Source: Pelomonas sp. BJYL3
GTDB taxonomy: Bacteria > Pseudomonadota > Gammaproteobacteria > Burkholderiales > Burkholderiaceae_C
DNA length: 64,000 nucleotides
NCBI RefSeq assembly: GCF_027257975.1
Contig: NZ_JANZKX010000001.1
Location: 1,054,001-1,118,000 of the forward strand
Reading direction: 5' to 3'
Position 1 is the first letter of the stretch; every line of letters starts with the position of its first letter. The notes under the pieces were generated by a model. That model saw only the letters and a list, made by a program, of their open reading frames with translations. It searched no databases and was not told where the DNA came from. Shown one piece after another: positions 6,278 to 30,978 of this stretch. The position numbers and the translations under genes are program-made.

Positions 6278-6280
6278 CTA
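6278..6280 (-). other. In-frame TAG interrupting the RTX gene near its 5' end
   Basis: An ATG at 6373-6371, preceded by GGAGG with a 9-base spacer, opens a frame of 31 codons (MAIETPIEFLQ ... YIRALIE). It then meets TAG at 6280-6278 and continues without a break into the 1094-residue RTX frame (TTGAAGGGTGCT). A CAG to TAG change would explain it, giving LIEQLKGAPIRV. The ATG also overlaps the stop of the lipoprotein gene by 11 bases, as expected for coupled genes. Confidence 0.75.
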
Positions 6281-6362
6281 TTCAATCAGCGCACGAATGT
6301 ACTGCCGCTGATACTCAGTCGTAGCTCCGTCGAGCAGTCTTTGAAGAAACTCAATTGGTGTC

Positions 6363-6950: not shown

Positions 6951-6962
6951 AACACCCTCTGA

Positions 6963-8246
6963 TTAATTTGAATCACAAAAAATCTTAAAGAAAGATCTCC
7001 CGTATTTTCTTGCAGTAGCAACCGATCGCAGTTGCTGGCCTCCGGTGCCTTGACTAATAGGCGGTATCTGCGCCAGGCCGCCCCCTATTGCCTCCGGCCT
7101 GAGCCCATCCACCAGCATCCCGCGGTGCCCTTCCGCTTCCGGATCCAGCACCTCCCTCACCGGCGCCGTATCTGAGCCCACTAGATAGCACCCTGTCGCC
7201 ATCGCCTCCAAACACGACCAACTCAGCACAAACGGGTAGGTCAAATACACATGCGCTGACGACACCTGCAGCACCCGCTTGTAGTCCGCATAAGGCACTT
7301 TGCCGAGGAAGTGCGTGCGCGTCGGGTCCAGCTGGTTCCCCACCTCGGCGAGCATCTTTTCGCGCCAGTGCTTGGCGTCCTTGGGCCGCGCGCCATAGCT
7401 GACGTCGTCGCCCCCCACGATCACCACATGCGCATTCCTATGCTCCCGCTGCACCGCCGGCAGCGCCCGCATGAAGGTGTGGAAGCCGCGGTAGGGCTCC
7501 AGGTTGCGCGCCACATAGGTGATGACCGGCTTGTCGGGATCGTTGGCACGCAAAACCTCGCCGCTGGGGGTCTTGATGACGGCGTTGGGGTCCGGGCCCA
7601 GGTTTTCGGTATCGATACCCTCGTGCGCCACCGTGATCTTGTCCAGATAGGCCGCGGGATGCTGGGCCTTCTGCCAGTGGGTGGGGCTGATGCCGGCATC
7701 GCAGTTCTGCAGGTTCAGCAGGTGCAGGGCGTTCCAGCTGCGGATGCGGGCGAGGTCATCGAAGGTGACGGGGAACTCGGGGTCGAAGCCCACGTCGGCA
7801 TAGGGCCAGGTGGCGCGGTCGAGCTGGTCCAGGCCGTCCAGCGGCGGGGTGTTGTAGAACCACTCGCAGTAGTGCACGAGGCGGGTGTGGGGGAAGACGT
7901 CCTTGGCGTAGAGCGTCTCGCCCCAGCCGGGGTGGGCCAGGATCACGTCGGGCGTGAAGCCCTCCTTCTTGAGCTGCAGCAGCACGCGCGCCACGGCCTG
8001 GCCGTGCAGCACGGCGTCTTCCATGCGGCGCAGGTAGTGGTGCTGCTCGCGGTGCACGCCGCGATGGGGCTTGTAGCGGATCAGGCGCAGGGCGCCGGCG
8101 CCGGTACCGATGTCGGTCAGGCCAGGCAGGCCCGGCGCGGTGTCCCGCCCGATGCCGACGACCTGCCAGCCCGGGCGGCGGGCCCACTCCGCCGCCACAT
8201 GGCGGAACTGGCCGGGGAAGTTCTGGTGGATGAGCAGGATGCGCAT
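6963..8246 (-). CDS. GT4-like glycosyltransferase
   Basis: 427 residues, beginning RILLIHQNFPGQFRH, the characteristic N terminus of a glycosyltransferase group often found beside RTX/T1SS genes. The GT-B C-terminal half is visible in VITYVARNLEPYRGFHTFM and in the donor-binding region around AMATGCYLVGSDTAPVREVL. Expected role: transfer of an activated sugar in the cytoplasm, possibly to the RTX protein or a surface polymer. It lies between hlyD and the lipoprotein gene in the same operon. The last about 35 residues are encoded by low-GC DNA and do not look like the normal family end, suggesting the 3' end was replaced by recombination. The ATG at 8246 lacks a clear Shine-Dalgarno. Confidence 0.85.
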   Translation of the reverse strand: MRILLIHQNFPGQFRHVAAEWARRPGWQVVGIGRDTAPGLPGLTDIGTGAGALRLIRYKPHRGVHREQHHYLRRMEDAVLHGQAVARVLLQLKKEGFTPDVILAHPGWGETLYAKDVFPHTRLVHYCEWFYNTPPLDGLDQLDRATWPYADVGFDPEFPVTFDDLARIRSWNALHLLNLQNCDAGISPTHWQKAQHPAAYLDKITVAHEGIDTENLGPDPNAVIKTPSGEVLRANDPDKPVITYVARNLEPYRGFHTFMRALPAVQREHRNAHVVIVGGDDVSYGARPKDAKHWREKMLAEVGNQLDPTRTHFLGKVPYADYKRVLQVSSAHVYLTYPFVLSWSCLEAMATGCYLVGSDTAPVREVLDPEAEGHRGMLVDGLRPEAIGGGLAQIPPISQGTGGQQLRSVATARKYGRSFFKIFCDSN

Positions 8247-15171: not shown

Positions 15172-16667
15172 CTTCACGACGCGATTGCCTCAAGACCGCG
15201 GCCGCCCTGGGCGGCGGCCTGGCCCTGCCCGCGCTGGCACAGACGGAGGCGGCTTCCGCGGCCCCCGCGGCCAGCGCCGCTGCTGCACCCCGCCCCCGTG
15301 CACCCCAGCGTCCGGCCGTGCCGGCTGCCGGCACGGCGGCCTCCGCCGCGCCTGCCGCCCCTGCCATCCCGCCGCTGGCCGCCCAGCCTGCGCGCGCCTG
15401 GCAGAACTGGTCCGGCCTGCAGCGCTGCGAGGCCGCCTGGCTGCTGCCCACGTCCGAGGAGCAGCTGGCCGCCAGCCTGCCCGCGCTCCAGGGCCCGATT
15501 CGCTGCGTGGGCGCCGGCCACAGCTTCACCGCCCTGGTGCCCACGCCGGGCACCCTGATCTCCCTGGACCGCCTCAGCGGCATCGTCGAGGTGGACAAGG
15601 CCGCGATGACCGTGCGCGTGAAGGCCGGCACCCGGCTGGGCACGCTGGCCCGCGAGCTGGACGCGCAAGGCCTGGCCCTGCACAACCAGCCGGACATCGA
15701 CGTGCAGACCCTGGCCGGCGCGCTGTCCACCGGCACCCATGGCACCGGCCTCACCCTGCCGGCCCTGCATGCCGAGGTCCAGGCCCTGCGCCTGCTCACG
15801 CCCCAGGGCGAACTGAAGGAGGCCAGCCGGCTCAAGGAGCCCGAGCTCTTCGATGCCGCCCGCGTCTCCCTGGGAGCCCTGGGCGTGATCACCGAGTACA
15901 CCCTGCGCGTGCGGCCCCGCTACATGCTGCGCCGCAAGGTCTGGCTGGAGCGCACCGAATCCCTGCTGGAGCGCGCGCCGACCCTGGCCCGCGAGAGCCG
16001 GCATTTCGAGCTCTATGTGCTGCCCTTCACCGGCTACGCGGCCGGCATCACCCACATCGAGGTGCCGCCAGGCGCGCCCGAGCGCCCGCACAGCGCCGAC
16101 GAAAACGTGCTGGCCGACCTGCAGAAGCTGCGCGACTGGCTGGGCCGCTGGCCGCAGCTGCGGCGCTGGGCCGCCGCCAAGCTCATCGACCCGGCGCAGA
16201 CCGAGCACGCGCTGGACTGGTCCCACAAGCTGCTGTCCACCGCGCGCCCCACGCGCTTCAACGAGACGGAGTACCACCTGCCGCGCGAGCAGGGCCTGCC
16301 CTGCCTGCGGGCCGTGGTGGCGCAGCTCGAGAAGCGCAACGAGGTCTTCTTCCCGCTGGAGTTCCGCTGGGTGCGGGCCGACCACGCCTGGCTGAGCCCC
16401 TTCTTCGAGCGCGACAGCTGCTCGGTGGCCGTGCATGCCAAGGCCGGCGAGGCCCATGACTACCTGCTCGGCGAGATCGGCCCGATCTTCCAGCGCCACG
16501 GCGGCCGCCCGCACTGGGGCAAGCTGCACACGCTGGGCGCGCGCGAGCTCGCCGCGCTGTATCCGCGCTTCAAGGACTTTCAGCAGCTGCGCGAGCAGCT
16601 GGACCCGCGCGGCCGCCTGCTCAACAGCCATCTGCAGCAGATCTTCGCAGGAGCCCCCCGTGCCTGA
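15168..16667 (+). CDS. Tat-exported FAD-linked oxidase, D-arabinono-1,4-lactone oxidase type
   Basis: 499 residues. A twin-arginine signal (MTSRRDCLKTAAALGGGLAL) and an Ala/Pro-rich spacer precede the FAD_binding_4 (VAO/PCMH) domain. GAGHSFTAL carries the His expected to bind FAD covalently, and ALSTGTHGTG is the second flavin loop. The C-terminal half matches the sugar-lactone oxidase (ALO) domain, with HWGKLHT near the end. Such enzymes oxidise aldonolactones, alditols or related alcohols. Export as a folded flavoprotein, next to a periplasmic cytochrome c, suggests a dehydrogenase passing electrons to the respiratory chain. The substrate is unknown. The start overlaps the cytochrome stop; the stop overlaps the next gene. 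Confidence 0.88.
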   Translation: MTSRRDCLKTAAALGGGLALPALAQTEAASAAPAASAAAAPRPRAPQRPAVPAAGTAASAAPAAPAIPPLAAQPARAWQNWSGLQRCEAAWLLPTSEEQLAASLPALQGPIRCVGAGHSFTALVPTPGTLISLDRLSGIVEVDKAAMTVRVKAGTRLGTLARELDAQGLALHNQPDIDVQTLAGALSTGTHGTGLTLPALHAEVQALRLLTPQGELKEASRLKEPELFDAARVSLGALGVITEYTLRVRPRYMLRRKVWLERTESLLERAPTLARESRHFELYVLPFTGYAAGITHIEVPPGAPERPHSADENVLADLQKLRDWLGRWPQLRRWAAAKLIDPAQTEHALDWSHKLLSTARPTRFNETEYHLPREQGLPCLRAVVAQLEKRNEVFFPLEFRWVRADHAWLSPFFERDSCSVAVHAKAGEAHDYLLGEIGPIFQRHGGRPHWGKLHTLGARELAALYPRFKDFQQLREQLDPRGRLLNSHLQQIFAGAPRA

Positions 16668-17967
16668 GACGCCCCCGCCCCAACGCTGGAACCGCCGCTG
16701 GAGCCGCCGCCGCTGGCTGGGCACCGGCGCCCTGCTGGCCGCCGGGAGCGCCTGGCTGGCCCGCCCTGCCGACCGCGGCGGCCCCGCCGAGCCCTACTTC
16801 CAGGGCCTGTCCCATGCCCTGCAGGCTGAGGGCCTGGCCCAGGCCCGCCTGGTGGTGGACCTGCCCCGGCTGCGCGCCAACCTTGCCCGCATCGGCGCCC
16901 ATCAGCAGAAGACCGGCATGGCCCTGCGCGCCGTGCTGAAGTCCCTGCCCTGCCTGCCCCTGATGGATGAGGTCGCCAGCGCCTGGGGCAGCCGCAAGGT
17001 CATGGCCTTCAACGCCGCCCAGACCGCCGCCTTGCTGCAGGCCCGCCCGGACGCCCAGGTGCTGCTGGGCAAGCCCTTCCCCGTGGCCGCCGCCGCGCAG
17101 CTGCTGGACCAGCTGCCGCCGCCGCGCGTCGCCGCCATCGAATGGCTGGTCGACACCGAGGCGCGACTGGCCCAGTACCGCCAGCTCGCGCAGGCCCGGG
17201 GTCAGGTCTTGCGCATCAACCTCGAGATCGACGTAGGCCTGCACCGCGGCGGCTTCGAGGACGAAGCCAGCCTGGGACGCGCCCTGGCTAGTTTCAAGTC
17301 CTCTCCCGGCCTGCAGTGGCGTGGCTTCATGGGCTATGACGCCCACGTGGCCGCACTGCCGGACGTCGCGGGCATGCGCAGCACGGCCTGGGCGACGGCC
17401 CGCCAGCGCTACGAGCGCGCCTGGGCGCTGGCGCAGCAGCTGCTGGGCCCGCAGCGCCGGCAAGACCTGACCCTCAACACCGCCGGCTCGCCCACCTTCC
17501 GCCTGCATGACGGCCAGGGCGTGCCCAACGAGGTCTCGGTGGGCTCCGCGGCCGTGCTGCCCTCGGACTTCGACAAGCCCCTGCTGTCCGACCTGCAGCC
17601 CGCCCTCTTCATCGCCACGCCCGTGCTCAAGGCCTGGCCGCGCTTTCGCCTGCCCGAGGGCGCGACCTGGCTGAGCCGCGCGGCCCAGGCCTGGGACCGC
17701 AACCAGGAACGCGGCTACGCCATCCACGGCGGCCACTGGCTGGCCGACCCGGTCTCCCCGCCGGGGCTGCAGGCCAGCGGGCTCTACGGCCCCAGCTCCA
17801 ACCAGCAGGTGATGGTGGCCAGCGACTCGGTGGAGCTGCAGGCCGACCAGCTGGTCTTCTGGCGGCCCCGCCAGAGCGAGGCCCTGCTGCTGCAGTTCGG
17901 GGACCTGCTGGTCTTCGACGGCCAGCGCATCACCGGCGCCTGGCCCGTCCTGCCCGCCTCCGCCTGA
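16660..17967 (+). CDS. Tat-exported DSD1-family (alanine racemase N-domain) PLP enzyme
   Basis: 435 residues. The GTG start at 16660 is fixed by AGGAG six bases upstream and overlaps the oxidase gene by 8 bases. A twin-arginine signal (SRRRWLGTGALLAAG) is followed by a type III fold barrel. LRAVLKSLPCLPL holds the likely PLP lysine and NLEIDVGLHRGGF is a typical barrel strand; a C-terminal DSD1-like beta domain follows. Family members are D-threonine aldolases, D-serine dehydratases and amino-acid racemases. A periplasmic location is unusual for this fold and implies export with the cofactor bound. The operon context suggests conversion of an amino-alcohol or D-amino-acid compound, but the reaction cannot be named. 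Confidence 0.82.
   Translation: MPETPPPQRWNRRWSRRRWLGTGALLAAGSAWLARPADRGGPAEPYFQGLSHALQAEGLAQARLVVDLPRLRANLARIGAHQQKTGMALRAVLKSLPCLPLMDEVASAWGSRKVMAFNAAQTAALLQARPDAQVLLGKPFPVAAAAQLLDQLPPPRVAAIEWLVDTEARLAQYRQLAQARGQVLRINLEIDVGLHRGGFEDEASLGRALASFKSSPGLQWRGFMGYDAHVAALPDVAGMRSTAWATARQRYERAWALAQQLLGPQRRQDLTLNTAGSPTFRLHDGQGVPNEVSVGSAAVLPSDFDKPLLSDLQPALFIATPVLKAWPRFRLPEGATWLSRAAQAWDRNQERGYAIHGGHWLADPVSPPGLQASGLYGPSSNQQVMVASDSVELQADQLVFWRPRQSEALLLQFGDLLVFDGQRITGAWPVLPASA
17199..17211 (+). repeat. Dispersed 13-mer copy 1 (GGGTCAGGTCTTG)
   Basis: Exact copy inside the DSD1-type gene; extended match GGGGTCAGGTCTTGCG at 17198-17213. Confidence 0.75.
17461..17473 (-). repeat. Dispersed 13-mer copy 2 (inverted)
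   Basis: Exact reverse complement CAAGACCTGACCC, also inside the DSD1-type gene, 250 bases from copy 1. Confidence 0.75.
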
Positions 17968-19959: not shown

Positions 19960-21198
19960 ATGCACGACTTTCCCCTGACCGGACTGGTCCTCAGCGGAGG
20001 CGGTGCCCGTGCGGCCTACCAGGTCGGCGTGCTGCAGACCCTCATGCGGCTGCGGCGCGAGGCCCAGGGCGAGGGCAGCGGCCGCAGCAACCCCTTCGGC
20101 GTGATCGTGGGCACCTCGGCCGGTGCCATCAACGGCACGGCCCTGGCCTGCGGGGCGGACCAGTTCGACGGCGCGGTGGAGCGACTCGCCCACGTGTGGC
20201 GCCACTTCCGCGCCGAGCAGGTCTACCGCAGCGATTCGCTGGGCGTGGCCGGCAGCGGCGCGCGCTGGCTGACCATGATGTCCTTCGGCTGGGCCATGGC
20301 GCGGCTGCGACCGCAGTCCCTGCTCAACAACGACCCGCTGCAGGACCTGCTGCACGAGCTCGTGCCCATGGACCGCCTGCCGGCCATCCTGGGGCGGCGC
20401 CACCTGCACGCCCTGGCCGTCACCGCCTCCAGCTACAGCAGCGGCGAGCACGTGACCTTCTATCAAAGCGCCCGGCCCATCGAGCCCTGGGTGCGCTCGC
20501 AGCGCCTGGCCGTGCCGGCGCAGCTGAACCACCAGCACCTGCTGGCGAGCGCGGCCATCCCCTTCATCTTCCCGGCCAAGCAGCTGGGCAGCGAGACCGA
20601 CCGCGGCTGGTTCGGCGACGGCTCCATGCGCCAGAGCGCGCCGCTGTCCCCCGCCATCCACCTGGGCGCCAAGCGCCTGCTGGTGATCGGCGCCGGGCGC
20701 ATGCACGAGCCGCAGGGCCGCCGGACGCCCGACCAGGGCTATCCCAGCCTGGCCCAGATCGCGGGCCATGCGCTGTCCAGCATCTTCCTGGACGCGCTGG
20801 CGGTGGACATCGAACGCATGCAGCGCATCAACCGCACGCTCTCCCTGATGCCCGCCGAGAGCCGCAAGTACAGCCCGCTGCAGCCCATTGAATGCCTGGT
20901 GATCTCGCCCAGCCAGCGCCTGGACGACCTCGCTGCGAAGCATGTGGAGGACCTGCCCAAGCCCATCCGCCTGCTGCTGCGGGCCGTGGGCGTGCAGCAA
21001 GGCCAGGGCCAGGGCGCGGCCCTGGCCAGCTACCTGCTCTTCGAGGCCCCCTACACCCAGGCCCTGATGGACCTGGGGGAGCAGGACACGCTGGCCCAGA
21101 AGGAGCGCGTGCTGGCCTTCTTCGGCTGGGACCAGGCCCCGCAGCGCGCGGGGCAGACGCAGACGCAGACGCAGGCGGCGCTGGCCGCCGGGCGCTGA
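19960..21198 (+). CDS. Patatin-like phospholipase
   Basis: 412 residues. The oxyanion loop GGGARAAYQVG, the nucleophile elbow GTSAG and the second dyad residue in FGDGS match patatin lipases (Ser-Asp dyad). The C-terminal third continues as a helical extension (LPKPIRLLLRAVG) seen in bacterial patatin family proteins. It hydrolyses acyl esters of phospholipids or lipids. No signal peptide, so it is cytoplasmic or membrane-peripheral. The ATG at 19960 is chosen because it sits directly before the first patatin strand. A short tandem Gln-Thr repeat (QTQTQTQ) near the C terminus comes from a (CAGACG)n-like run. Ends two bases before the EcsC-like gene on the other strand. Confidence 0.9.
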   Translation: MHDFPLTGLVLSGGGARAAYQVGVLQTLMRLRREAQGEGSGRSNPFGVIVGTSAGAINGTALACGADQFDGAVERLAHVWRHFRAEQVYRSDSLGVAGSGARWLTMMSFGWAMARLRPQSLLNNDPLQDLLHELVPMDRLPAILGRRHLHALAVTASSYSSGEHVTFYQSARPIEPWVRSQRLAVPAQLNHQHLLASAAIPFIFPAKQLGSETDRGWFGDGSMRQSAPLSPAIHLGAKRLLVIGAGRMHEPQGRRTPDQGYPSLAQIAGHALSSIFLDALAVDIERMQRINRTLSLMPAESRKYSPLQPIECLVISPSQRLDDLAAKHVEDLPKPIRLLLRAVGVQQGQGQGAALASYLLFEAPYTQALMDLGEQDTLAQKERVLAFFGWDQAPQRAGQTQTQTQAALAAGR

Positions 21199-21199
21199 G

Positions 21200-21772
21200 T
21201 CAGTCCGGCAGCGAGGCGAACAGCGCCTGTGCGCTGCGCCCGACCTGCCGGGTGTCCCACCAGGCATAGGCCCCCACACCGGCCGCACCCGCCAGGGGCA
21301 CCCAGCGCGCCACGGCGCTGCCCAGGCTGCGCTCGCCCAGCTTGACGCCGATGGCCTGCAGCACCCGCTGCAGCACCGCCTGGCCGGCACGCTCGCCGGC
21401 TCGCACGGCCAGGTCGCGCACGGCCTGCGCCGCGGTGTGGCGGAAGAGGCAGTAGAGCATCTGGTCCCGGCCGAGTTCGGCACTGTGGCCGTGCAGGGCG
21501 GCCACGTCGGCCACCAGCTGGGACTGGATGCGCCAGACAGCCAGCAGCTCGGGCAGGACCGTCAGCCAGCCCAGGGGCCCGGGAGGCAAGGCCAGGCCGG
21601 CCGCGGTGGCGGCGGCCTTGCGCGCCGCAGCCTCGGTCAGCGCGCGGGCCCGGGCCTCGCGCTCGGCCAGCGGGCGCTGCGCCTCGTCCGACGCGGGCTT
21701 GCGCGCCACCAGCTCCAGCAGGGCATCCGACCAGGCCCGATGGGCCTCCGGCAGGGCAGGCAGGGTGTTCAT
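21200..21772 (-). CDS. EcsC-family protein
   Basis: 190 residues. The segment LPPGPLGWLTVLPELLAVWR, followed by QSQLVADVAALHG, matches the conserved core of EcsC proteins, with a hydrophobic C-terminal stretch (WVPLAGAAGVGAYAWW). Function in this family is poorly known; members are often membrane-associated. Start at the ATG at 21772. The gene is convergent with the patatin gene and divergent from the GMC operon. Confidence 0.7.
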   Translation of the reverse strand: MNTLPALPEAHRAWSDALLELVARKPASDEAQRPLAEREARARALTEAAARKAAATAAGLALPPGPLGWLTVLPELLAVWRIQSQLVADVAALHGHSAELGRDQMLYCLFRHTAAQAVRDLAVRAGERAGQAVLQRVLQAIGVKLGERSLGSAVARWVPLAGAAGVGAYAWWDTRQVGRSAQALFASLPD

Positions 21773-21955: not shown

Positions 21956-22480
21956 ATGCAACGTCGAACCCTCATGAAGCTGGGCCTGGGCAGCGGACTC
22001 CTGCTGACCCTGGCCGGCCTCGGCCTGCGCGGCATCGAGCCCGGCCTCCAGACGCCGGCCGACGGCCCCGTCCGCCAGAGCCCCCGCAGCCGCGCGCTGA
22101 TGGGCGCCATCGCCCTGGCCGTGCTGGACAGCGCCTGGCCTGCCGATGCCACCCAGCGCAGCCGCGCCCTGCAGGCCCATCTGGACCTGGTGGATGGCGC
22201 CATCGCCGGCTTCCCGCCGGCCATGCAGGCCGAACTGGGCCAGCTGCTGACGGTGCTCAGCAGCGCCGCCGGCCGCCGCGGCCTGGCGGGCCTCGGCACG
22301 GACTGGCCCGAGGCCGCCACGCCCGCCGTGCAGGCGGCCCTGCAGTCGATGCGCGACTCGCGCCTCAGCCTGCGCGAGCAGGCCTACCAGGCCCTGCGCG
22401 ACCTGCACTGCGCCGTCTTCTTCAGTGCCCCGCAGCACTGGTCCCTGATGGGCTATCCCGGCCCGAAGTCCTTCGAATGA
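21956..22480 (+). CDS. Tat-signal small subunit of GMC oxidoreductase
   Basis: 174 residues. MQRRTLMKLGLGSGLLLTLAG is a twin-arginine signal. The rest is helical, like gluconate 2-dehydrogenase subunit 3 proteins that pair with GMC flavoproteins. It precedes the GMC gene by 10 bases, so the two are co-translated. The GMC partner lacks its own signal. The likely job is to carry the folded flavoprotein through the Tat pore and hold it at the membrane. Start at 21956, immediately before the Arg pair. Confidence 0.75.
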   Translation: MQRRTLMKLGLGSGLLLTLAGLGLRGIEPGLQTPADGPVRQSPRSRALMGAIALAVLDSAWPADATQRSRALQAHLDLVDGAIAGFPPAMQAELGQLLTVLSSAAGRRGLAGLGTDWPEAATPAVQAALQSMRDSRLSLREQAYQALRDLHCAVFFSAPQHWSLMGYPGPKSFE

Positions 22481-22490
22481 GGCCGCGCCC

Positions 22491-24110
22491 ATGAGCATGT
22501 TCCAAGACCCCATCCGCGAGGGGCTGGCCCAGGGCTGGCGTGTGCTGGGCGGCGGCCACGCGCCCCTGCCCGCGCAGCTCGACTGCGACGTCGCCATCGT
22601 GGGCAGCGGTGCGGGTGCCGGCATCAGCGCCGAGCTGCTGGTCCAGGCCGGGCTGAAGGTCGTGATCATCGAGGCCGGCCCCCTGCGCTCCAGCAGCGAC
22701 TTCAAGCAGCGCGAGGCCGATGCCTACACCACGCTCTACCAGGAAGGCGCCGCCCGCAAGACCGCCGACAAGGCCTTCAACATCCTGCAGGGTCGCTGCG
22801 TGGGCGGCTCCACCACGGTCAACTGGACCAGCAGCTTCCGCACCCCGGCCGACACCCTGGCCTTCTGGGGCCGCGAGTTCGGCCTCACGGACCTCGGCGA
22901 GGCCGCCATGGCGCCCTGGTTCGCCCGGGCCGAGGCCCGGCTCAACGTGCACGACTGGGAAGGCACCCCCAATGCCAACAACAGCGCCCTGGAGCGCGGC
23001 CTGCAGGTGCTGAAGCTGGAGGCCAAGCGCATCCCGCGCAATGTGAAGGGCTGCTGGAACCTGGGCTCCTGCGGCCTGGGCTGCCCCACCAACGCCAAGC
23101 AGTCCATGCTGCTGACGACGATTCCTGCGGCCCTGGCCGGCGGCGCCACGCTGCTGGTGCAGACCCGCGCCGAGCGCCTGGAATGGTCGGGCGACACGGT
23201 GCAGGCCATCGTCTGCCGCCCCGTGGCGCTCAACGACGCCCCCGCCGGCCCCGAGCTGCGCGTGCGGGCCCGGCACTACCTCGTGGCCGGCGGCGCGATC
23301 AACTCGCCCGCCCTGCTGCTGCGCTCACAGGCGCCCGACCCCCACCAGCGCCTGGGCCGCCGCACCTTCCTGCACCCGGTGGTGATCTCGGCGGCGATGT
23401 TCGACGAAGCCATCGAGGGCTGGGCCGGCGCGCCGCAGAGCGTCTACACCGACCACTACCTGCACACCGACCCCATCGACGGCCCCCTGGGCTTCAAGCT
23501 GGAGGTGCCGCCCCTGCACCCGGCCCTGATGGCCTCCACCCTGGTGGGCCTGGGCGAGGGCTATGTGCAGACCCTGAAGCAGTTCCCGCATGCCCAGGCG
23601 GTGCTGGCCCTGCTGCGCGACGGCTTCCATCCGGAGTCGCCCGGCGGCCGCGTGCAACTGCGTGGCGACGGCAGCCCGGTGCTGGACTATCCCATCAACG
23701 CGACCCTGCTGGACGGTGCCCGCCGCGCCCTGCTGGCGATGGCCGAGCTGCAGTTCGCGGCCGGCGCCCGCACCGTGATGCCTCTGCACGAGCAGGGCCG
23801 CTTCGTGAAGAGCTGGGCCGAGGCCCGGGCGCAGATCCAGGCCCTGCCCCTGGGCGCGCAGCAGCTGCGCCTGGTCAGCGCCCACGTCATGGGCGGCTGC
23901 GGCATGGCGGCCGACGCCTCGCGCGGCGTGGTGCGCCCGGACGGCCGGCACTGGCAGCTGCGCAATCTCTCGGTGCATGACGGCTCCCTCTTCCCGACCA
24001 GCATCGGCGCGAATCCGCAGCTGTCCATCTACGGCCTGGCCACGCGCTTGACGGTGGGACTGGCCCGCGAGCTGGGCGGCCGGGACCTGAGCCACCCGGG
24101 CGCCGCCTGA
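22491..24110 (+). CDS. GMC-family flavin alcohol oxidase/dehydrogenase
   Basis: 539 residues. The ADP-binding motif VAIVGSGAGAGISAELL lies at about 35-50 and is followed by the GMC signature region GRCVGGSTTVNWTSSFR. A Cys-rich loop CWNLGSCGLGCPTNAK, typical of fatty-alcohol-oxidase-like members, follows. The C-terminal catalytic His region is in SAHVMGGCGM and GANPQLSIYGLATRL. It oxidises primary alcohols, perhaps long-chain ones, to aldehydes. It is exported with the Tat small subunit encoded upstream (inference). A 94-base gap separates it from the alkyl-DHAP-synthase-like gene, with which it may form a lipid-alcohol pathway. Confidence 0.9.
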   Translation: MSMFQDPIREGLAQGWRVLGGGHAPLPAQLDCDVAIVGSGAGAGISAELLVQAGLKVVIIEAGPLRSSSDFKQREADAYTTLYQEGAARKTADKAFNILQGRCVGGSTTVNWTSSFRTPADTLAFWGREFGLTDLGEAAMAPWFARAEARLNVHDWEGTPNANNSALERGLQVLKLEAKRIPRNVKGCWNLGSCGLGCPTNAKQSMLLTTIPAALAGGATLLVQTRAERLEWSGDTVQAIVCRPVALNDAPAGPELRVRARHYLVAGGAINSPALLLRSQAPDPHQRLGRRTFLHPVVISAAMFDEAIEGWAGAPQSVYTDHYLHTDPIDGPLGFKLEVPPLHPALMASTLVGLGEGYVQTLKQFPHAQAVLALLRDGFHPESPGGRVQLRGDGSPVLDYPINATLLDGARRALLAMAELQFAAGARTVMPLHEQGRFVKSWAEARAQIQALPLGAQQLRLVSAHVMGGCGMAADASRGVVRPDGRHWQLRNLSVHDGSLFPTSIGANPQLSIYGLATRLTVGLARELGGRDLSHPGAA

Positions 24111-24204
24111 CGCCAAATCACAAGCCCCGCGTCGCCAAAGACCAAGCCAGGCGGCCCGCCGCTCCTTAAGCTTCAAGCCCATCTGATCATGAGGGGAAGA
24201 CGCG

Positions 24205-25836
24205 ATGCGACGCTGGAACGGCTGGGGCGAAGAATCCATCCACGCGACCATTGACGAGGGCGCCCGGGGCTTTCTGGAGGAGGCCCTGGGGTCGGGCGCG
24301 CCGCCGCAGGACGCGAGTCTCGCGGCGGCGCTGGCACGGCTGCCGGCCTCGCGCCTGAGCGCCGCGCAGCTGCATGGCGCCCCCGTGCCCCTGAGCATCG
24401 AGGCCGAGGACCGCCTGCGCGCCAGCTTCGGCCAGAGCCTGGGGGACTGGCTGCGCCTGCGCTTCGGCCAGATCGGCCCGGTCTGCGACGCCGTGGCCTC
24501 GCCGGACGCCGTCGAGCAGGTCCGCCCGCTGCTGGACTGGGCCCGCCAGCAGGGGCTGGTGGTGATCCCCGTGGGCGGCGCCACCAGCGTCGTTGGCCAC
24601 CTCACGCCGCCGGCCGGCGAACGGCCCGTGCTGATGCTGTCGATGCAGCGCCTGCGCCGCCTGCTGAGCCTGGATGCCGCTTCGCAGCTGGCCCGCTTCG
24701 AAGCCGGCGTGCTGGGCCCGGACCTGGAGGCGCAGCTGCGCGCCGAGGGCTGGATGCTGGGGCACTATCCGCAGAGCTTCGAGTACGCCTCGCTGGGCGG
24801 CTGGATCGCCACCCGATCCTCGGGCCAGCAGTCGGCCCGCTACGGGCGCATCGAGGCGCTCTTTGCCGGCGGCCGCGTGGAGCTGCCGTCGTCCACGCTG
24901 GACATCCCCACCCTGCCCGCCACCGCCGCCGGCCCTGACCTGCGCGAATGGGTGCTGGGCTCGGAAGGCCGCCTGGGCGTGATCACCGAGGCCAGCGTGC
25001 GCATCAGCCGCGTGCCCGAGCGCGAGGACTTCGTCGCCTGGTTCCTGCCCAGCTGGGAGCGCGGCCAGGCCGCCGTGCAGGCGCTGGCCCAGGCCCGCCT
25101 GGGCCTCTCGATGATGCGCCTGGCCAATGCCACCGAGACCCTCACCACGCTGAAGCTGGCCGGCCACGCTGGCGCGATCGCCTGGCTGGAGCGCTACCTG
25201 GCGCTGCGCGGCTGCGCCGAGGGCAAGGTCCTGCTGATGCTGGGCTTCACAGGCGGTGCCGCGCAGGTGCGCGCGATGCAGGCGCTGGCGAGGCCGCTGC
25301 TGCGCGCGCAGGGCGGCGTCTCCACCGGCACCCTGCTGGGCCGCAAGTGGGCCGCCAAGCGCTTCCGCGGTGTCTACCTGCGCAATGCGCTGTGGGAGGC
25401 CGGCTATGCGGTCGACACCATGGAGACGGCCTGCGACTGGCCGCGCGTCACGCCCATGATGCAGGCCATGGAGCACGCCGGCCGCAGCGCGCTGGCGGGC
25501 CATGGCGAGCGCTGCCATGCCTACACGCATCTCTCGCACGTCTACCCGCAGGGCTCCAGCGTCTACAGCACCTTCGTCTTTCGCATCGGGCCGGACTTCG
25601 ACGGCGCCTGGGCGCGCTGGCAATCGCTCAAGGCGGCGGTCAGCGAGGCCATCGTGCGCGAGGGCGGCACCATCAGCCACCAGCATGGCGTGGGCAAGGA
25701 CCACGCGCCCTACCTCGGCGCCGAGAAGGGCGCGACGGGCCTGCGCCTGATCGACGGCCTGATCCGCGAGGCGGATCCGGGCGGCCTGCTGGACTCCGGC
25801 AATCTGCGGCCCTCGACGGCCCGCGCCCAGCCATGA
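24205..25836 (+). CDS. FAD-binding oxidase of the alkyldihydroxyacetone-phosphate synthase type
   Basis: 543 residues. The FAD_binding_4 domain is close to alkyl-DHAP synthase (AGPS): VVIPVGGATSVVGHLTPP, then GHYPQSFEYASLGGWIATRS and the SGQQSARYGRIE stretch. The C-terminal domain contains the His-rich end SHQHGVGKDHAPYL, where AGPS has its catalytic His residues. AGPS swaps the acyl chain of acyl-DHAP for a fatty alcohol, making the ether bond, and the chemistry is reversible. GAGGGG precedes the ATG by about eight bases. The stop overlaps glpD-like by four bases (ATGA). Context favours ether-lipid metabolism; direction is not known. Confidence 0.88.
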   Translation: MRRWNGWGEESIHATIDEGARGFLEEALGSGAPPQDASLAAALARLPASRLSAAQLHGAPVPLSIEAEDRLRASFGQSLGDWLRLRFGQIGPVCDAVASPDAVEQVRPLLDWARQQGLVVIPVGGATSVVGHLTPPAGERPVLMLSMQRLRRLLSLDAASQLARFEAGVLGPDLEAQLRAEGWMLGHYPQSFEYASLGGWIATRSSGQQSARYGRIEALFAGGRVELPSSTLDIPTLPATAAGPDLREWVLGSEGRLGVITEASVRISRVPEREDFVAWFLPSWERGQAAVQALAQARLGLSMMRLANATETLTTLKLAGHAGAIAWLERYLALRGCAEGKVLLMLGFTGGAAQVRAMQALARPLLRAQGGVSTGTLLGRKWAAKRFRGVYLRNALWEAGYAVDTMETACDWPRVTPMMQAMEHAGRSALAGHGERCHAYTHLSHVYPQGSSVYSTFVFRIGPDFDGAWARWQSLKAAVSEAIVREGGTISHQHGVGKDHAPYLGAEKGATGLRLIDGLIREADPGGLLDSGNLRPSTARAQP

Positions 25837-27425
25837 AGCGCGCCGACAGCTGGGCCGCCCTGCGCCTGCACGAGACCGAGCCGCTGGACCTGCTGGTCAT
25901 CGGCGGCGGCATCGCCGGGGCCGGCGTGGCGCTGGAGGCCGCGCGCTGCGGCGCCCGCGTGGCCCTGGTCGAGGCGCGGGACTTCGCGGGCGGCACCTCG
26001 TCCAAATCGTCCAAGCTCGTGCACGGCGGCCTGCGCTACCTGGCTCAGGGGCAGATCGGCCTGACCCGCGAATCCGTGCGCGAACGCAAGGCCCTGCTGC
26101 GCGACATGCCGGGCCTGGTGACGCCTCTGCGCTTCCTGCTGCCGGTGCGCCGCGGGGATCGCAAGGGCCGGCGCATCCTGGGCCTGGGTCTCGCGATGTA
26201 CGACTTCTTCGCCGGCCGCCGCACGCGCCAGTGGCACGCGCCCGCCGCGGTGCTGGCGCAGGCGCCGCATCTGCAGGAGCAGGACCTCGCGGGCGGCTGG
26301 TCCTACCTTGACGCCCAGACCGACGACGCCCGCCTCGTGCTGCGCGTGCTCGCCGAGGCCCGGCTGCACGGCGCGCTGACGCTCAACCACGTGGCCGCCG
26401 AGAGCCTCATCGAGGCCGAGGGCCGCGTGCAGGGCGCCTGCCTGCGCGATGCGGCCAGCGGCGAGACCCGCGTGGTGCAGGCCCGCGTGGTCGTCAACGC
26501 CACCGGCGCCTGGGCCGACCGCCTGCGCCAGAACCTGGGCGAGGGCCCCAAGCTGCGGCCCCTGCGCGGCAGCCACCTCGTCTTCGAGGCCTGGCGCCTG
26601 CCCGTGGCCCAGGCCCTGGCCTTCTTCCATCCGAGGGACGGCCGGCCCGTGTTCGCCCTGCCCTGGGAGGGACGCACCCTGCTGGGTACCACGGACCTGG
26701 ACCACCGCGACCCGCTGGACCGTGAGCCCGGCATCAGCGCCGCGGAATTCGACTACCTGATGCAGGCGGTGCGTGCCGCCTTCCCCAGCCTCGACCTCGG
26801 CCTGGAAGACGTGGTCTCGACGTTCTCAGGCGTGCGGCCGGTGCTGGACTCCGGGGACCAGCGTGACCCGTCCAAGGAAGCGCGCGAGCACCTGATCCTC
26901 GCCGAGCGCGGCCTGCTGACCGTCAGCGGCGGCAAGCTCACCACCTTCCGCGCCAGCGCCATCCAGGCGCTGCGCCGCGTGCAGGGCCGGGTGCCCGCCC
27001 TGCAGCGCCTGCGCCCCGATGCGCCCCTGCTGCGCACGCCCGGCATCGCCAGCCTGCAGGCCGCGCGTGCGCTGCCGCCGGCCCTGCGCGAGCGCCTGCT
27101 GGCCCGCTATGGCGACGCCACCGCCACCCTGCTGGCCGAGGCCCGGCCGGGCGAGCTGCAGGACATCCCGCATGCCCAGTGCTGCCTGGCCGAGCTGCGC
27201 TACGCCTGCCGCCACGAGGCCGTGCTGCATCTGGACGACCTGCTGCTGCGCCGCAGCCGCATCGGTCTGCTGCTGCGTGACGGCGGCGCGGCCCTGCTGC
27301 ACACGCTGAGGCCCCTGGTGCAGGAGACCCTGGGCTGGAACGACGAGCGCTGGGACGACGAGTGCCACCGCTACCGCGACCGCGTGTTGCGCTGCTACGG
27401 CATTCCCACAGAATGGCGCCCATGA
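25833..27425 (+). CDS. GlpD-like FAD glycerol-3-phosphate dehydrogenase
   Basis: 530 residues. The N-terminal FAD motif LLVIGGGIAGAGVALEAA is followed by GGTSSKSSKLVHGGLRYL, both diagnostic of aerobic glycerol-3-phosphate dehydrogenase. The middle has ATGAWADRLR and the C-terminal helical domain has SGGKLTTFR. It oxidises sn-glycerol-3-phosphate, or here perhaps a 1-alkyl analogue, to the DHAP form, passing electrons to quinone. The ATG overlaps the upstream stop, and the stop overlaps the downstream kinase, so it is the middle of a three-gene coupled unit. The substrate change to alkyl-glycerol phosphate is inference from neighbours. Confidence 0.9.
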   Translation: MKRADSWAALRLHETEPLDLLVIGGGIAGAGVALEAARCGARVALVEARDFAGGTSSKSSKLVHGGLRYLAQGQIGLTRESVRERKALLRDMPGLVTPLRFLLPVRRGDRKGRRILGLGLAMYDFFAGRRTRQWHAPAAVLAQAPHLQEQDLAGGWSYLDAQTDDARLVLRVLAEARLHGALTLNHVAAESLIEAEGRVQGACLRDAASGETRVVQARVVVNATGAWADRLRQNLGEGPKLRPLRGSHLVFEAWRLPVAQALAFFHPRDGRPVFALPWEGRTLLGTTDLDHRDPLDREPGISAAEFDYLMQAVRAAFPSLDLGLEDVVSTFSGVRPVLDSGDQRDPSKEAREHLILAERGLLTVSGGKLTTFRASAIQALRRVQGRVPALQRLRPDAPLLRTPGIASLQAARALPPALRERLLARYGDATATLLAEARPGELQDIPHAQCCLAELRYACRHEAVLHLDDLLLRRSRIGLLLRDGGAALLHTLRPLVQETLGWNDERWDDECHRYRDRVLRCYGIPTEWRP

Positions 27426-28999
27426 CTGCCGAGACTACCCCCGCCCACCCGGATGAACTGATCCTCAGCCTGGACTGCGGCACGCAGAGCGTGCGCGCCC
27501 TGCTCTTCGACCTGCAGGGCCGGCTGCTGGCCAAGTGCCAGCAGTCGCTGGACGATTACGTGAGCCTGCAGGAAGGCTGGCTGGAGCATGACGCCGAGGC
27601 CTTCTGGCAGGCCGCGTCCGGTGTCTGCCGCGGCCTGTGGCAGACGCACCCGCAGCTGAAGGCCGCGGTGAAGGGCCTGGTGGTCACCACGCAGCGGGGC
27701 AGCCTGGTGCCGGTGGATGCCGGGGGTCAGGCCTTGCGCCCCTTCATCATCTGGCTGGACCAGCGCCGCGCCAGCCGTGCGCGCCCCATGGCGCCATGGT
27801 GGCGCCTGGCCTTCAAGGCCGCGCGGGTCGACGGCACCATCGACTACTTCAGCCGCGAGGCCGAGATCAACTGGATCGCCGAGCACGAGCCCGAGGTCGC
27901 GCGCCGCACGCACAAGCTGCTGCTGCTCTCGGGCTGGTTCCACTACAAGCTGACCGGGCGCTTCGCCGACTCCGTGGCCTGCCAGGTGGGCTATCTGCCC
28001 TTCGACTTCAAGCGCCAGGACTGGGCGGCCAGCTGGGACTGGAAATGGCAGGCCCTGGCCACCACGCCCGAGCAGATGCCCGAGCTGCTGCCGGTGGGCT
28101 CCACCATTGGCGGCCTGACCCGCGAGGCCGCCGCCGCCTGCGGCCTGCCCGAGGGCCTGCCGGTGATCGCCGGGGCCGCGGACAAGGCCTGCGAGATCGT
28201 CGGTGCCGGCGCCATCACGCCGGACATCGGCGCGCTGAGCTATGGCACCACGGCCACCATCGACATCACGACGCCGCGCTATGTCGAGGCCCTGCCCTTC
28301 ATCCCGCCCTACCCGGCCCTGCTGCCGGGCCAGTACAACACCGAGGTGCAGATCTTCCGCGGCTACTGGATGGTCAGCTGGTTCAAGGAGCAGTTCGGCC
28401 ACCCCGAATGCGTGGCGGCCGGCGAGCAGGGCGTGATGCCCGAGGTGCTCTTCGACCAGCTGGTGCGCGCCGTGCCACCCGGCAGCGAGGGCCTGATGCT
28501 GCAGCCCTACTGGACGCCGGGCATCCGCCACCCGGGGCCGGATGCGCGCGGGGCGGTGATCGGCTTCTCCGATGTGCACACCCGCGCCCACCTCTACCGC
28601 GCCATCCTCGAGGGCCTGGCCTACGCGCTGCGCGAGGGCGCCGAGCGCATCCAGCGCCGCGGCAAGACGGCCATCACCAGCCTGCGGGTCTCGGGCGGGG
28701 GCTCGCAGTCCGACGCCGCGCTGCAGCTGACGGCCGACATCTTCAACCTCCCCACCTCGCGCCCGCACACCTACGAGACCTCGGGCCTCGGGGCCGCCAT
28801 CGCCGGCGCCGTGGGCCTGGGCCTGCACCGCGACCACGCCAGCGCCGTGGCCGCCATGACGCGCCTGGGGCAGACCTTCGAGCCCGTGCCCGCGCACGCC
28901 GAGCGCTACGAGGCGCTCTACCAGCGCGTCTACAAGCGCATGTACGAGCCGCTGCGGCCCTTGTACGCCGAGCTGCAGGACATCCTCCACCCGCGCTGA
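27422..28999 (+). CDS. FGGY-family carbohydrate kinase
   Basis: 525 residues. The N-terminal phosphate-binding strand LILSLDCGTQSVRALLFD and the later ALSYGTTATIDI and LRVSGGGSQSDAAL segments mark the two actin-like domains of FGGY kinases (glycerol kinase, xylulokinase). It transfers phosphate from ATP to a polyol or sugar. In this operon a glycerol or alkylglycerol substrate would make sense, feeding the GlpD-like enzyme. The ATG at 27422 overlaps the upstream stop by four bases. Sequence alone does not separate glycerol, xylulose or other substrates. Confidence 0.88.
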   Translation: MTAETTPAHPDELILSLDCGTQSVRALLFDLQGRLLAKCQQSLDDYVSLQEGWLEHDAEAFWQAASGVCRGLWQTHPQLKAAVKGLVVTTQRGSLVPVDAGGQALRPFIIWLDQRRASRARPMAPWWRLAFKAARVDGTIDYFSREAEINWIAEHEPEVARRTHKLLLLSGWFHYKLTGRFADSVACQVGYLPFDFKRQDWAASWDWKWQALATTPEQMPELLPVGSTIGGLTREAAAACGLPEGLPVIAGAADKACEIVGAGAITPDIGALSYGTTATIDITTPRYVEALPFIPPYPALLPGQYNTEVQIFRGYWMVSWFKEQFGHPECVAAGEQGVMPEVLFDQLVRAVPPGSEGLMLQPYWTPGIRHPGPDARGAVIGFSDVHTRAHLYRAILEGLAYALREGAERIQRRGKTAITSLRVSGGGSQSDAALQLTADIFNLPTSRPHTYETSGLGAAIAGAVGLGLHRDHASAVAAMTRLGQTFEPVPAHAERYEALYQRVYKRMYEPLRPLYAELQDILHPR

Positions 29000-29046
29000 G
29001 GCCGGACCGGGCGAAGGGCCGCCGCGCTTGCGGCACACTTCGGCCC

Positions 29047-30135
29047 ATGCCCGACCATTCGGCCCTCGCCTCCGCGGAGTCCCACCCGCTGCAACGCCTG
29101 CCTGGCGCCGCCCACGCCCGCGTGGTGGGTGCCTACGCACGCACCGCGGTGGAGACGGCCCAGTCGCTGGGCGTGGACCTGACCGCCCTCGCCCAGGCCT
29201 GCGACTGGCCGGCCCTTGCGGCCCAGCCTCTGCAGCTGCCCGAGGCGCTGCCCGTGGACCGCTACATCGCCTTTCTGCACGAGGCCGCGCTGCAGCTGGG
29301 CCACCGCCGCTTCGGCCTGGAAGTGGGCCGGCGCATGCAGCTCTCCACCTTCGCCAGCTACGGCCTGGTGCTGTGCGCCTGCCCCGACGTGCGCTCGGCC
29401 CTGGTCCAGACCCAGCGTTTCGAGGGCCTGGCCCACGACCTGGGCCGCAGCGAGCTGAGCGTGGAGGGCGACACGGCCGTCTACCGCTGGCACAGCCCCT
29501 GGCTGGACCGCCCCGGCGCGGACCAGCTCGTGGAGAGCGTGATGATGGGCATCTACAGCTTCGGCCACTGGCTGGTGGGCCGCCAGCTGCCCCTGAGCCA
29601 GCTGCGCTTCGCCCATGTGCCTTCCGAGGCGGACACGGCCGCGTGGTACGGCCAGCTGCTGGGCGTGCCGGTCGAGTTCGGCGCCGCGATCACCGAGGCC
29701 CGCTTCCCCGCCGCCCTGCTGGACCTGCCCCTGGCCAATGCCGACGCCAGCATGTTCCCCGCCCTCGCCCAGGCCGCGGAGGCGCGGCTCTCGGCCCGCC
29801 TGCGCGAGACCCAGGAGCCCGCCCTGGTCCAGGCCCTGCGCCAGGACATCGCCGCCCAGCTGATGCAGGGTCGCGCCACCCTGGCCCTGCTGGCCGAGAG
29901 CCGCCAGCTCTCCGCGCGCAGCCTGCAGCGGCGGCTGGCGGAATCGGGCCACAGCTTCAGCCAGCTGCTGGACGAGGTCCGCAAGGAGCTGGCCCAGCGC
30001 TACCTGCGCCAGCCCGAGCTCTCGCTGACCGACGTGGCCTTCCTGCTGGGCTTCAGCGAGCAGAGCAATTTCAACCACGCCTTTAAGCTGTGGTTCGGCG
30101 CCTCGCCCGCGGCCTGGCGGGCGCAGCAGCGCTGA
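29047..30135 (+). CDS. AraC-family regulator with arabinose-binding-like N domain
   Basis: 362 residues. The N-terminal PF12625-type ligand domain (about 20-210) includes FGLEVGRRMQLSTFASYGLV. The C-terminal AraC DNA-binding domain has two helix-turn-helix units and the signature ending LSLTDVAFLLGFSEQSNFNHAFKLWFG. It lies 47 bases after the kinase on the same strand and is the likely activator of the GMC/AGPS/GlpD/kinase genes. Members of this subfamily often sense lipids or hydrophobic compounds. The ATG at 29047 lacks an obvious Shine-Dalgarno. No operator could be picked with confidence. Confidence 0.9.
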   Translation: MPDHSALASAESHPLQRLPGAAHARVVGAYARTAVETAQSLGVDLTALAQACDWPALAAQPLQLPEALPVDRYIAFLHEAALQLGHRRFGLEVGRRMQLSTFASYGLVLCACPDVRSALVQTQRFEGLAHDLGRSELSVEGDTAVYRWHSPWLDRPGADQLVESVMMGIYSFGHWLVGRQLPLSQLRFAHVPSEADTAAWYGQLLGVPVEFGAAITEARFPAALLDLPLANADASMFPALAQAAEARLSARLRETQEPALVQALRQDIAAQLMQGRATLALLAESRQLSARSLQRRLAESGHSFSQLLDEVRKELAQRYLRQPELSLTDVAFLLGFSEQSNFNHAFKLWFGASPAAWRAQQR

Positions 30136-30144
30136 CGCGCCGGC

Positions 30145-30978
30145 TCACTCCCGCGACGTTCGCAGCCAGCCGGGGGCCGGGTCCCCGGGCACATGGATGC
30201 GTGCCTTGATGTGCTTGAGCTGCGCCACCAGGGTGAAGCTCATCAGCACCAGCAGGCTCCAGGCACTCCACTTGCTGACATGCACCGTGGCCCAAGCGCC
30301 CAGCTGGTTGGGGTAGCGCCACAGGCCCAGGAAGGTGCCCAGGTTCTCGGCCAGCCAGATGAAGAAGCCGATCAGCACGAGCGCCAGCGGCAGCGGCATG
30401 CGCAGGTCGCGCTGCCAGGGGCGGAAGACTACGGTCGAGCGCGCGTAGAGGCCCAGCGCGCCAGCGGCCAGGTACCAGCGCCAGTCGCCGATGTAGTGCT
30501 GGGTGAAGAAGTTCAGGTAGAGCGCGCCCGCCATCGCACCGGCCATCCAGTACGGTGGGTGATGAAGGATGCGCAGGTCGAAGAGCCGCCAGGCCTGGAT
30601 GATGTAGCTGCCCACCGCGGCATACATGAAACCCGAGAACAGCGGCACGCCGAAGAGCTTGGTGTAGGCCGCTTCCGGATAGCTCCAGGACCCGATGGCC
30701 GAGGAGGTCTTGAACAGCTCCAGCGCCAGGCCCAGCAGGTGGAAGGCCGCGATGGCCTTGATCTCGTCCAGCGTCTCCAGGCCCAGGCGCCACAGGCCCC
30801 ATTGCAGGGCCAGGGCGATGCCCAGCAGCAGGTCGTAGCGCGGCACGCCCAGCACGCCGCCACGGGGCACCAGGAAGACGGCCAGGAAGAAGAGCCCGGC
30901 GAAGATGCAGGCCTGGGCTTCCTTGCGGGTGAAGTGCCAGAGTTCAAGGGCCGGCACGCGCCAGCCTTCAGCGCTCAT
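30145..30978 (-). CDS. DUF817 multi-pass membrane protein
   Basis: 277 residues with about eight hydrophobic helices. The opening, ELWHFTRKEAQACIFAGLFF, matches DUF817 (COG3739). Several conserved aromatic and charged motifs follow, such as NFFTQHYIGDWRWYL and WLAENLGTFLGLWRYP. The family is an integral inner-membrane group of unknown function. Its ATG overlaps the stop of the secreted protein gene upstream by 11 bases, so the two are coupled. Convergent with the AraC gene. Confidence 0.85.
   Translation of the reverse strand: MSAEGWRVPALELWHFTRKEAQACIFAGLFFLAVFLVPRGGVLGVPRYDLLLGIALALQWGLWRLGLETLDEIKAIAAFHLLGLALELFKTSSAIGSWSYPEAAYTKLFGVPLFSGFMYAAVGSYIIQAWRLFDLRILHHPPYWMAGAMAGALYLNFFTQHYIGDWRWYLAAGALGLYARSTVVFRPWQRDLRMPLPLALVLIGFFIWLAENLGTFLGLWRYPNQLGAWATVHVSKWSAWSLLVLMSFTLVAQLKHIKARIHVPGDPAPGWLRTSRE

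Follow-up and report, generated by a model that had tools for sequence, protein, structure and literature searches.

What does a bacterium do with a homologue of an enzyme of ether lipid synthesis when its gene is joined to genes of a kinase and a dehydrogenase resembling those of glycerol metabolism? The question is raised by a locus of Pelomonas sp. BJYL3, analysed here within a window of 64,000 nucleotides (contig NZ_JANZKX010000001.1, positions 1,054,001 to 1,118,000; contig C1 of the 5.24-Mb genome). Positions 21956-30135 of the window encode, on the plus strand, a small protein of the twin-arginine (Tat) type, a GMC oxidoreductase, a flavoprotein similar to the alkyl-dihydroxyacetone phosphate (alkyl-DHAP) synthase AGPS (ADPS in Dictyostelium), a GlpD-like dehydrogenase, an FGGY kinase and an AraC-type regulator. 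All these genes had been named in a preliminary description of the locus and are present. The AGPS-like, GlpD-like and FGGY genes are referred to below as the triad.

A candidate route for the breakdown of alkylglycerols

The triad, together with the Tat/GMC pair that resembles LaoB and LaoA, is proposed to form an operon for the catabolism of 1-O-alkylglycerols, which make up the core of alkyl ether lipids; we give this a probability of about 0.7. The preliminary description had preferred breakdown to synthesis of ether lipids, and this preference gains support from several observations that would favour breakdown: extra GlpK- and GlpD-like paralogues and the loss of kinase residues that we take to line the glycerol pocket; LaoA/LaoB-type genes beside the triad and alcohol or aldehyde enzymes after the kinase gene in four other loci; and a phospholipase C (one locus) or FadR-type regulators (five loci) in front of the set.

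We infer the substrates, the direction and the regulation of the operon as follows. The FGGY kinase would phosphorylate 1-O-alkyl-sn-glycerol at C3, and the GlpD-like flavoenzyme would turn the hydroxyl at C2 into a ketone, so that alkyl-DHAP is formed and the electrons pass to the quinone pool. Alkyl-DHAP would then be bound on the FAD of the AGPS-like flavoenzyme, which would expel the fatty alcohol, as AGPS running backwards; water (or a fatty acid) would replace the alcohol, yielding DHAP (or acyl-DHAP). The long-chain alcohol released would be oxidised by the LaoAB-like pair, and the AraC regulator would switch the gene set on.

Occurrence of the gene set in bacterial genomes

A scan of contigs gave 78 loci (numbered with the prefix L), to which 18 regions of the host's own family (L028-L045) and the window were added. 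Two duplicates (L028, L034), a fragment (L123) and five distant homologues (L041-L045) were left out, giving 89 loci of the window clade; L018, a short contig, had not been included. The gene set is real and more than a chance assembly: in 86 of the 89 loci the AGPS-like gene has a co-directional GlpD homologue as its direct neighbour, and the FGGY kinase is present in 76, in 74 of them on the same strand and within 3.5 kb. Two of the loci without GlpD (L064, L116) come from short contigs measuring 4.8 and 4.2 kb.

In a tree that took in 37 of the 89 loci, the window clade is a separate group (97/99) with the two eukaryotic enzymes outside. Its named members belong to Pseudomonadota, Bacillota, Chloroflexota, Acidobacteriota, Myxococcota, Thermodesulfobacteriota, Nitrospirota and Vulcanimicrobiota, and include aerobes as well as lineages of anoxic habitats (such as Desulfosporosinus, Desulfohalobiaceae and Anaerolineales). 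The set is sparse in the host's family, with an AGPS match at 1e-30 in 18 of 150 genomes, 14 of these being of the clade type. Among 398 genomes of Pseudomonadota, 24 have a match at 1e-25; besides the window they provide 15 clade loci (43-56% identity), all of which have the SHQHG/SHQHGIG motif and a co-directional GlpD gene. The nearest named relatives of the window protein are from Mitsuaria sp. WAJ17 (95%) and Roseateles subflavus (91%). Two loci of Nitrospirota (L114, L115), basal in the clade, have the reversed order GlpD-AGPS and an HHH motif, and FGGY was not found in them.

The AGPS-like flavoprotein

Homology to the solved ADPS and AGPS structures (EC 2.5.1.26) spans most of the window protein, with phmmer values of 7.5e-69 for Dictyostelium ADPS (2uuu; residues 68-506) and 5.1e-54 for guinea-pig AGPS (4bby; residues 59-534). 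In guinea-pig numbering, counted from the phmmer alignment (chain numbering of 2uuu is 3 lower throughout), R419, R515 and Y578 are kept in all 89 clade proteins, and so are H615 and H617 in the 88 without a gap there. By alignment position R419, Y578 and R515 correspond to R352, Y508 and R447, which are described as residues that matter in the D. discoideum enzyme (PMC3509576). H616 is replaced by glutamine in 83 of 88 proteins and retained in five (L087, L109, L113, L114, L115); the window protein accordingly reads SHQHG for SHHHG and lacks the HHH motif (H615-H617) of AGPS/ADPS. The HQH form was considered as a strict mark of breakdown, an idea weakened by the five HHH members, which do not form one clade in the tree.

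The mechanism of ADPS is reported to be ping-pong, through an adduct of DHAP on N5 of FAD with the flavin oxidised (PMC3509576), and it is therefore chemically plausible that the reaction could run in reverse and expel the alcohol. Ether cleavage is the reaction we would assign to the AGPS-like enzymes of this clade.

The kinase and the GlpD-like dehydrogenase

The opposite direction deserves consideration on account of the homology and chemistry of AGPS itself. In ether lipid synthesis the kinase and GlpD would make DHAP from glycerol, an acyltransferase would convert it to acyl-DHAP and the AGPS-like enzyme would swap in a fatty alcohol, much as the authors of the work on the regulator GliR propose (PMC8151288). 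The properties of the kinase and the dehydrogenase are among the grounds on which we consider synthesis quite improbable.

The FGGY kinase matches 12 NCBIfam families, in each case with a score under the cut-off, and reaches 146 bits against the glycerol kinase family TIGR01311 (cut-off 590 bits). On comparison with six GlpKs, R84, W104 and D246 are kept in all 76 clade kinases, whereas E85 is replaced in all 76 (G in 53, A in 14, S in 5, T in 2, D in 2), Q247 is K in all 76, and F271 is replaced by T in 75 and by S in one. We take E85, Q247 and F271 to be residues of the glycerol pocket of GlpK, and R84, E85, D246 and Q247 to be the glycerol contacts of its structures; of this presumed contact set, R84 and D246 are kept and E85 and Q247 lost throughout, which speaks against glycerol as the substrate that synthesis would call for. 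Position Y136 was not used, the alignment there being off by one residue.

The GlpD-like protein matches 3da1 at 6.6e-79 and NF008899 with 308 bits, below the cut-off of 360. Between six canonical GlpDs and 85 cluster sequences 24 columns differ (5 of them gaps), and 71 columns are conserved alike in both sets, among them R54, Y55, R317, R332 and K354 of E. coli GlpD, presumably residues of its site.

A second FGGY protein, above the GlpK cut-off, is encoded in all 14 clade genomes of the host's family. A second GlpD-like gene is likewise found in 14 of 14, nine being over the cut-off of NF008899 and five, which this cut-off also misses, below it (275-311 bits); it lies within about 11 kb of GlpK on the same contig in 13 genomes and on another contig in G065. 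The kinase and GlpD-like genes of the triad would therefore be redundant under synthesis. This finding differs from that of the GliR paper, in which glpK and glpD are described as not found in its strains outside Pseudomonas, as far as its available text goes (PMC8151288).

Synthesis is further disfavoured in that the known alkyl-DHAP reductase is reported to be a short-chain dehydrogenase/reductase and not of the GlpD type (PMC13256971), and in that the adjoining alcohol-oxidising genes would destroy its fatty alcohol substrate. Neither FAR nor GNPAT domains were seen among the clade neighbours chosen for scanning. PF07993 (fatty acyl reductase) matched all 14 genomes and all 14 controls, and is uninformative on the supply of fatty alcohol.

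Neighbours of the triad in other loci

The family scans covered chosen neighbours, a part of the 138 genes found in runs with the triad. Right after FGGY and on the same strand are encoded an AdhE-like protein of 887 residues (L109), an iron-containing alcohol dehydrogenase (L113), an aldehyde dehydrogenase (ALDH; L118) and a GMC protein followed by an ALDH (L049); in L100 pieces of GMC lie upstream on the other strand. The 36 co-directional genes that follow FGGY within 200 bp represent 13 lineages at 70% AGPS identity. Three of these lineages have purely alcohol or aldehyde enzymes as followers, and a fourth if L049, one of six loci of its lineage, is counted. Three in 13 corresponds, as a post hoc count, to P = 2.7e-4 at an assumed base rate of 1% and 2.0e-3 at 2%; the base rate refers to 3-17 ALDH and iron-containing alcohol dehydrogenase matches, GMC not included, per genome of 1.9-4.8 Mb in five genomes with such neighbours.

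FadR_C regulators are located in front of the set in L084, L100, L104, L112 and L118, assigned by Pfam in L104 and by homology (45-77%) in the other four. A phospholipase C precedes the set in L048, with one gene between, and YegS/DAGK homologues follow FGGY in 14 loci, all of Pseudomonas. Two genes fit neither direction, one for an MFS_1 protein that precedes AGPS in L105 and one for a TonB receptor close to FGGY in L054; beyond these, no transporters were seen among the clade neighbours scanned. Many of the scanned neighbours are housekeeping or regulatory genes and lend no support.

A protein of 436 residues without a Pfam match is encoded after FGGY in L068 (12996-14306) and also in L070, L075, L086, L038 and L039. 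In profile searches its ten top-ranking hits, each of them weak (E 0.018-0.06), are zinc-dependent phospholipases C, and its model is helical and of low confidence (mean pLDDT 55). Triads are also flanked by DUF1302/DUF1329 genes or by a BNR/sortilin-like protein (L068, L070, L075, L086; L083, L088, L117), possibly serving the uptake of a hydrophobic substrate.

The putative alcohol-oxidising pair

The GMC protein of the window is 53% identical over residues 6-530 to the GMC protein of a P. aeruginosa PA7 locus with the order TetR-like gene (a label given by look and place), ALDH, Tat small protein, GMC. The ALDH of that locus is 50% identical to the ALDH of L150 (PF00171). The same layout is described for PP_5119-PP_5122, the last two of which are homologous to LaoB and LaoA (PMC13291428), and LaoA/LaoB is cited as a long-chain-alcohol dehydrogenase (PMC13291428, PMC6107682, PMC10779009). 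At an E cut-off of 0.001 neither Pfam nor NCBIfam gives a match for the small protein. It can be aligned over its full length both with four proteins encoded in front of GMC genes (46-53%) and with the PA7 protein between ALDH and GMC (27%), sharing the RR and GYPGP motifs with these LaoB-like proteins; the PA7 match was not picked up by BLAST alone. The window thus has the combination typical of LaoAB, a GMC protein with an adjacent Tat-signal small subunit, the signal being recognised by eye from the RR start. The eight proteins scanned in the surroundings of the pair include neither the ALDH LaoC nor the TetR regulator LaoR. A gene of 190 residues at 21200-21772 on the minus strand was considered as LaoR and rejected, a single comparison with the PA7 TetR-like protein giving no real similarity (E 0.06).

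GMC homologues occur in 45 of the 150 genomes of the family. In 12 GMC contexts (L148-L159) the Tat homologue is always present, AGPS is absent from every stretch and an ALDH stands in front in three; an acyl-CoA-synthetase-like gene was also noted nearby in seven of the 12. Such occurrences would agree with the triad and the GMC/Tat pair being unrelated neighbours, the pair serving only for the oxidation of alkanols or surfactants. We regard this as unlikely, since the pair lies on the same strand with a gap of 94 bp, an arrangement kept in three closely related loci, since the window gene is the sole GMC match at E 1e-40 in its own genome, and since four other triads have other alcohol or aldehyde enzymes. 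Unrelatedness of the pair would in any case leave the interpretation of the triad itself untouched. With GMC/Tat mostly located elsewhere without AGPS and adjoining the triad in only three of 89 loci, the pair is a movable alcohol-oxidation module, placed next to the triad in the window's locus and in those of two close relatives, and its membership of a conserved cluster is ruled out.

The AraC regulator and the GliR operon

The AraC-type regulator scores 190 bits against NF049968 (QhpR; cut-off 250) and 154 bits against NF050186 (GliR; cut-off 570). In 47 of the 89 loci an AraC homologue lies no more than 5 kb from AGPS, that of L049 matching by its C-terminus only. The window has the combination of the GliR operon, an AraC gene with an AGPS-GlpD-FGGY cluster, with a regulator score below that of the GliR family. 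A locus of P. aeruginosa PA7 (L072; 55% AGPS identity) falls in the clade, and the triad matches the core of the published GliR/PA3026-PA3024 operon of P. aeruginosa, which is already known.

Overproduction of GliR is reported to raise the mRNA of PA3026-PA3023, PA3464 (a phospholipase C) and PA3342, and GliR binds the PA3464 promoter (PMC8151288). The presence of a phospholipase C among the genes raised by GliR agrees with breakdown, because together with a lipase it would free alkylglycerol from an ether phospholipid. Kotecka et al. (2021) suggest synthesis, leading from glycerol to alkylglycerone phosphate (PMC8151288). Among the growth substrates given for the operon deletion in the available part of that paper, alkylglycerols do not appear.

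Distantly related gene sets

A second kind of set was identified in L044, L045, L182/L189, L183/L190 and L187/L191. The AGPS-like proteins show 27-31% identity, with R515 lost and HHH kept; FGGY is present in all five and a GlpD-like gene in four (it was not found in L044), in shuffled gene orders. These sets form a branch of their own with L184 (99/94), of unsure placement owing to long branches. MFS transporters of the sugar type or ABC transporters accompany the four that were scanned for them (L044, L045, L190, L191), and a glycerol 3-phosphate-responsive antiterminator lies beside the set of L190. They possibly encode a pathway for soluble glycerol ethers or glycosides. As they sit with MFS sugar-type or ABC transporters, a tie to lipids does not hold across all families, and the chemistry is suggested to be general.

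The transporters and the antiterminator are the best ground for supposing that the window operon, too, degrades a non-lipid glycerol ether, glycoside or polyol, the AGPS-like enzyme cleaving another C-O bond; L105, where FGGY was not found and MFS_1 precedes AGPS, points the same way. There is only a slim chance of this, the window clade being a separate group that keeps R515 and has LaoAB, AdhE, iron-containing alcohol dehydrogenase, ALDH, phospholipase C and FadR_C as neighbours, with transporters seen in L105 and L054 alone among the neighbours scanned.

A wider proposal, which we offer tentatively and hold to be rather doubtful, is that the triad is a general cassette for cleaving glycerol ethers without oxygen. 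It would phosphorylate the free end, form a ketone and expel the alcohol through an FAD adduct, the window branch acting on alkylglycerols with release of fatty alcohol and the distant branch on soluble ethers or glycosides with release of sugar. The FGGY gene of the window would then be an alkylglycerol kinase gene.

Evidence opposed to the breakdown of alkylglycerols

Several observations weigh against the proposed breakdown. The one published interpretation that was found runs in the opposite direction (PMC8151288), as does the AGPS biochemistry on record (PMC3509576). In the accessible text of the GliR work, deletion of the operon leaves growth unchanged in rich medium, on citrate or glycerol and in BIOLOG plates, and GliR is active in E. 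coli without added ligand, where cloned PA3464 promoter fragments are not activated (PMC8151288). The LaoAB homologues of P. putida are reported to be dispensable for growth on C16 and C20 alcohols (PMC13291428), and LaoBA adjoins the triad only in the three related loci mentioned, GMC usually occurring without AGPS. The change of H616 to Q is not strict, and the HHH members L109 and L113 sit beside alcohol dehydrogenases. Finally, in 29 of the 65 clade loci whose run includes FGGY, no gene of the same direction follows it within 200 bp; in the remaining 36, only four followers are alcohol or aldehyde enzymes, and some followers are unannotated.

Literature searches, whose coverage left most subscription papers outside, revealed neither a biochemical test of the clade enzymes nor a published breakdown route.

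Layout of the locus and other features of the window

The genes of the locus are listed in Table 1. The preliminary description had the kinase, dehydrogenase and AGPS-like genes coupled by ATGA overlaps; both overlaps are seen in the sequence, at 25833 (AGPS/GlpD) and 27422 (GlpD/FGGY), although the real order is AGPS, GlpD, FGGY. The GMC gene adjoins this core, as had been stated, on the same strand but across the 94-bp gap and hence without overlap; it follows the Tat gene by 10 bp. The AraC gene follows the kinase gene, as described, 47 bp behind it. A promoter and terminator scan gave no promoter-like sites (0.2 expected) and two terminator-like sites (1.0 expected), nothing of which is usable.

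Table 1. Genes of the proposed alkylglycerol operon and a nearby gene (window positions)
Predicted product	Position	Strand	Domains and motifs
LaoB-like twin-arginine small subunit, 174 aa	21956..22480	+	RR near N-terminus, C-terminal GYPGP
LaoA-like GMC long-chain-alcohol dehydrogenase (predicted), 539 aa	22491..24110	+	Pfam GMC_oxred_N + GMC_oxred_C
AGPS/ADPS-like flavoprotein, proposed alkyl-DHAP ether-cleaving enzyme, 543 aa	24205..25836	+	Pfam FAD_binding_4 + FAD-oxidase_C
GlpD-like FAD dehydrogenase, proposed alkyl-glycerol-3-phosphate dehydrogenase, 530 aa	25833..27425	+	Pfam DAO + DAO_C
FGGY kinase, proposed alkylglycerol kinase, 525 aa	27422..28999	+	Pfam FGGY_N + FGGY_C
AraC-type regulator, GliR/QhpR-like, 362 aa	29047..30135	+	Pfam Arabinose_bd + HTH_18
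Patatin-like phospholipase, possible accessory deacylase (weak link)	19960..21198	+	Pfam Patatin 6.3e-23

The patatin-like gene is located 757 bp upstream of the Tat gene with an opposite-strand gene in between; a patatin also occurs in L047. Directly behind the AraC gene a DUF817 membrane protein is encoded on the minus strand (30145-30978). Elsewhere in the window, the G+C content falls to 0.55-0.61 at 4001-8000, as compared with about 0.70 in the remainder, perhaps marking a foreign stretch, and 16435-17967 encodes a protein with an Alanine-racemase-N domain that is weakly similar to the 3-hydroxy-D-aspartate aldolase BhcC and whose N-terminal part may be mis-started.

Comparison with known systems

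The core operon is already known; its proposed direction of breakdown and the putative cleavage of the ether without O2 would be new as far as the literature searches show. If correct, a kinase-dehydrogenase-AGPS route would degrade ether lipids without O2 and pterin, and would give the GliR operon of P. aeruginosa a function opposite to the published direction. The clade reaches lineages of anoxic habitats, where the degradation of ether lipids is, in our view of the field, an open question.

The window locus resembles the GliR regulon (PA3027-PA3023) in that an AraC gene accompanies the AGPS-like, GlpD-like and FGGY genes, whose order is also the same. It differs in that the AraC gene is downstream and co-directional, a LaoBA pair is added, no YegS/DAGK homologue occurs within the 20 kb searched, and the proposed direction is reversed. 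With LaoABCR it shares a LaoA-like protein (53% identity) directly preceded by a LaoB-like Tat partner, whereas no ALDH (LaoC) or recognisable TetR (LaoR) stands beside the pair. The resemblance to AGPS/ADPS (EC 2.5.1.26) extends over most of the length and includes R419, R515, Y578, H615 and H617; the differences are Q for H616, the lack of FAR/GNPAT partners among the neighbours seen, and a clade that excludes the two eukaryotic enzymes.

An AGPS homologue in a bacterium is also known from the MXAN_1676 operon of M. xanthus, where it sits with a FAR-GNPAT protein and its loss is reported to lower ether lipids slightly (PMC9131029). The homologue has a minor part in synthesis there, in contrast to the kinase, the GlpD-like enzyme and the alcohol oxidation encoded here. 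The monooxygenase AGMO has been called the only known enzyme that breaks the ethers of alkylglycerols (PMC7911779, PMC9192799). Breakdown of ether lipids would result from both systems; AGMO is a tetrahydrobiopterin-dependent monooxygenase, unlike the route proposed for the window, which would use no O2 at the cleavage step.

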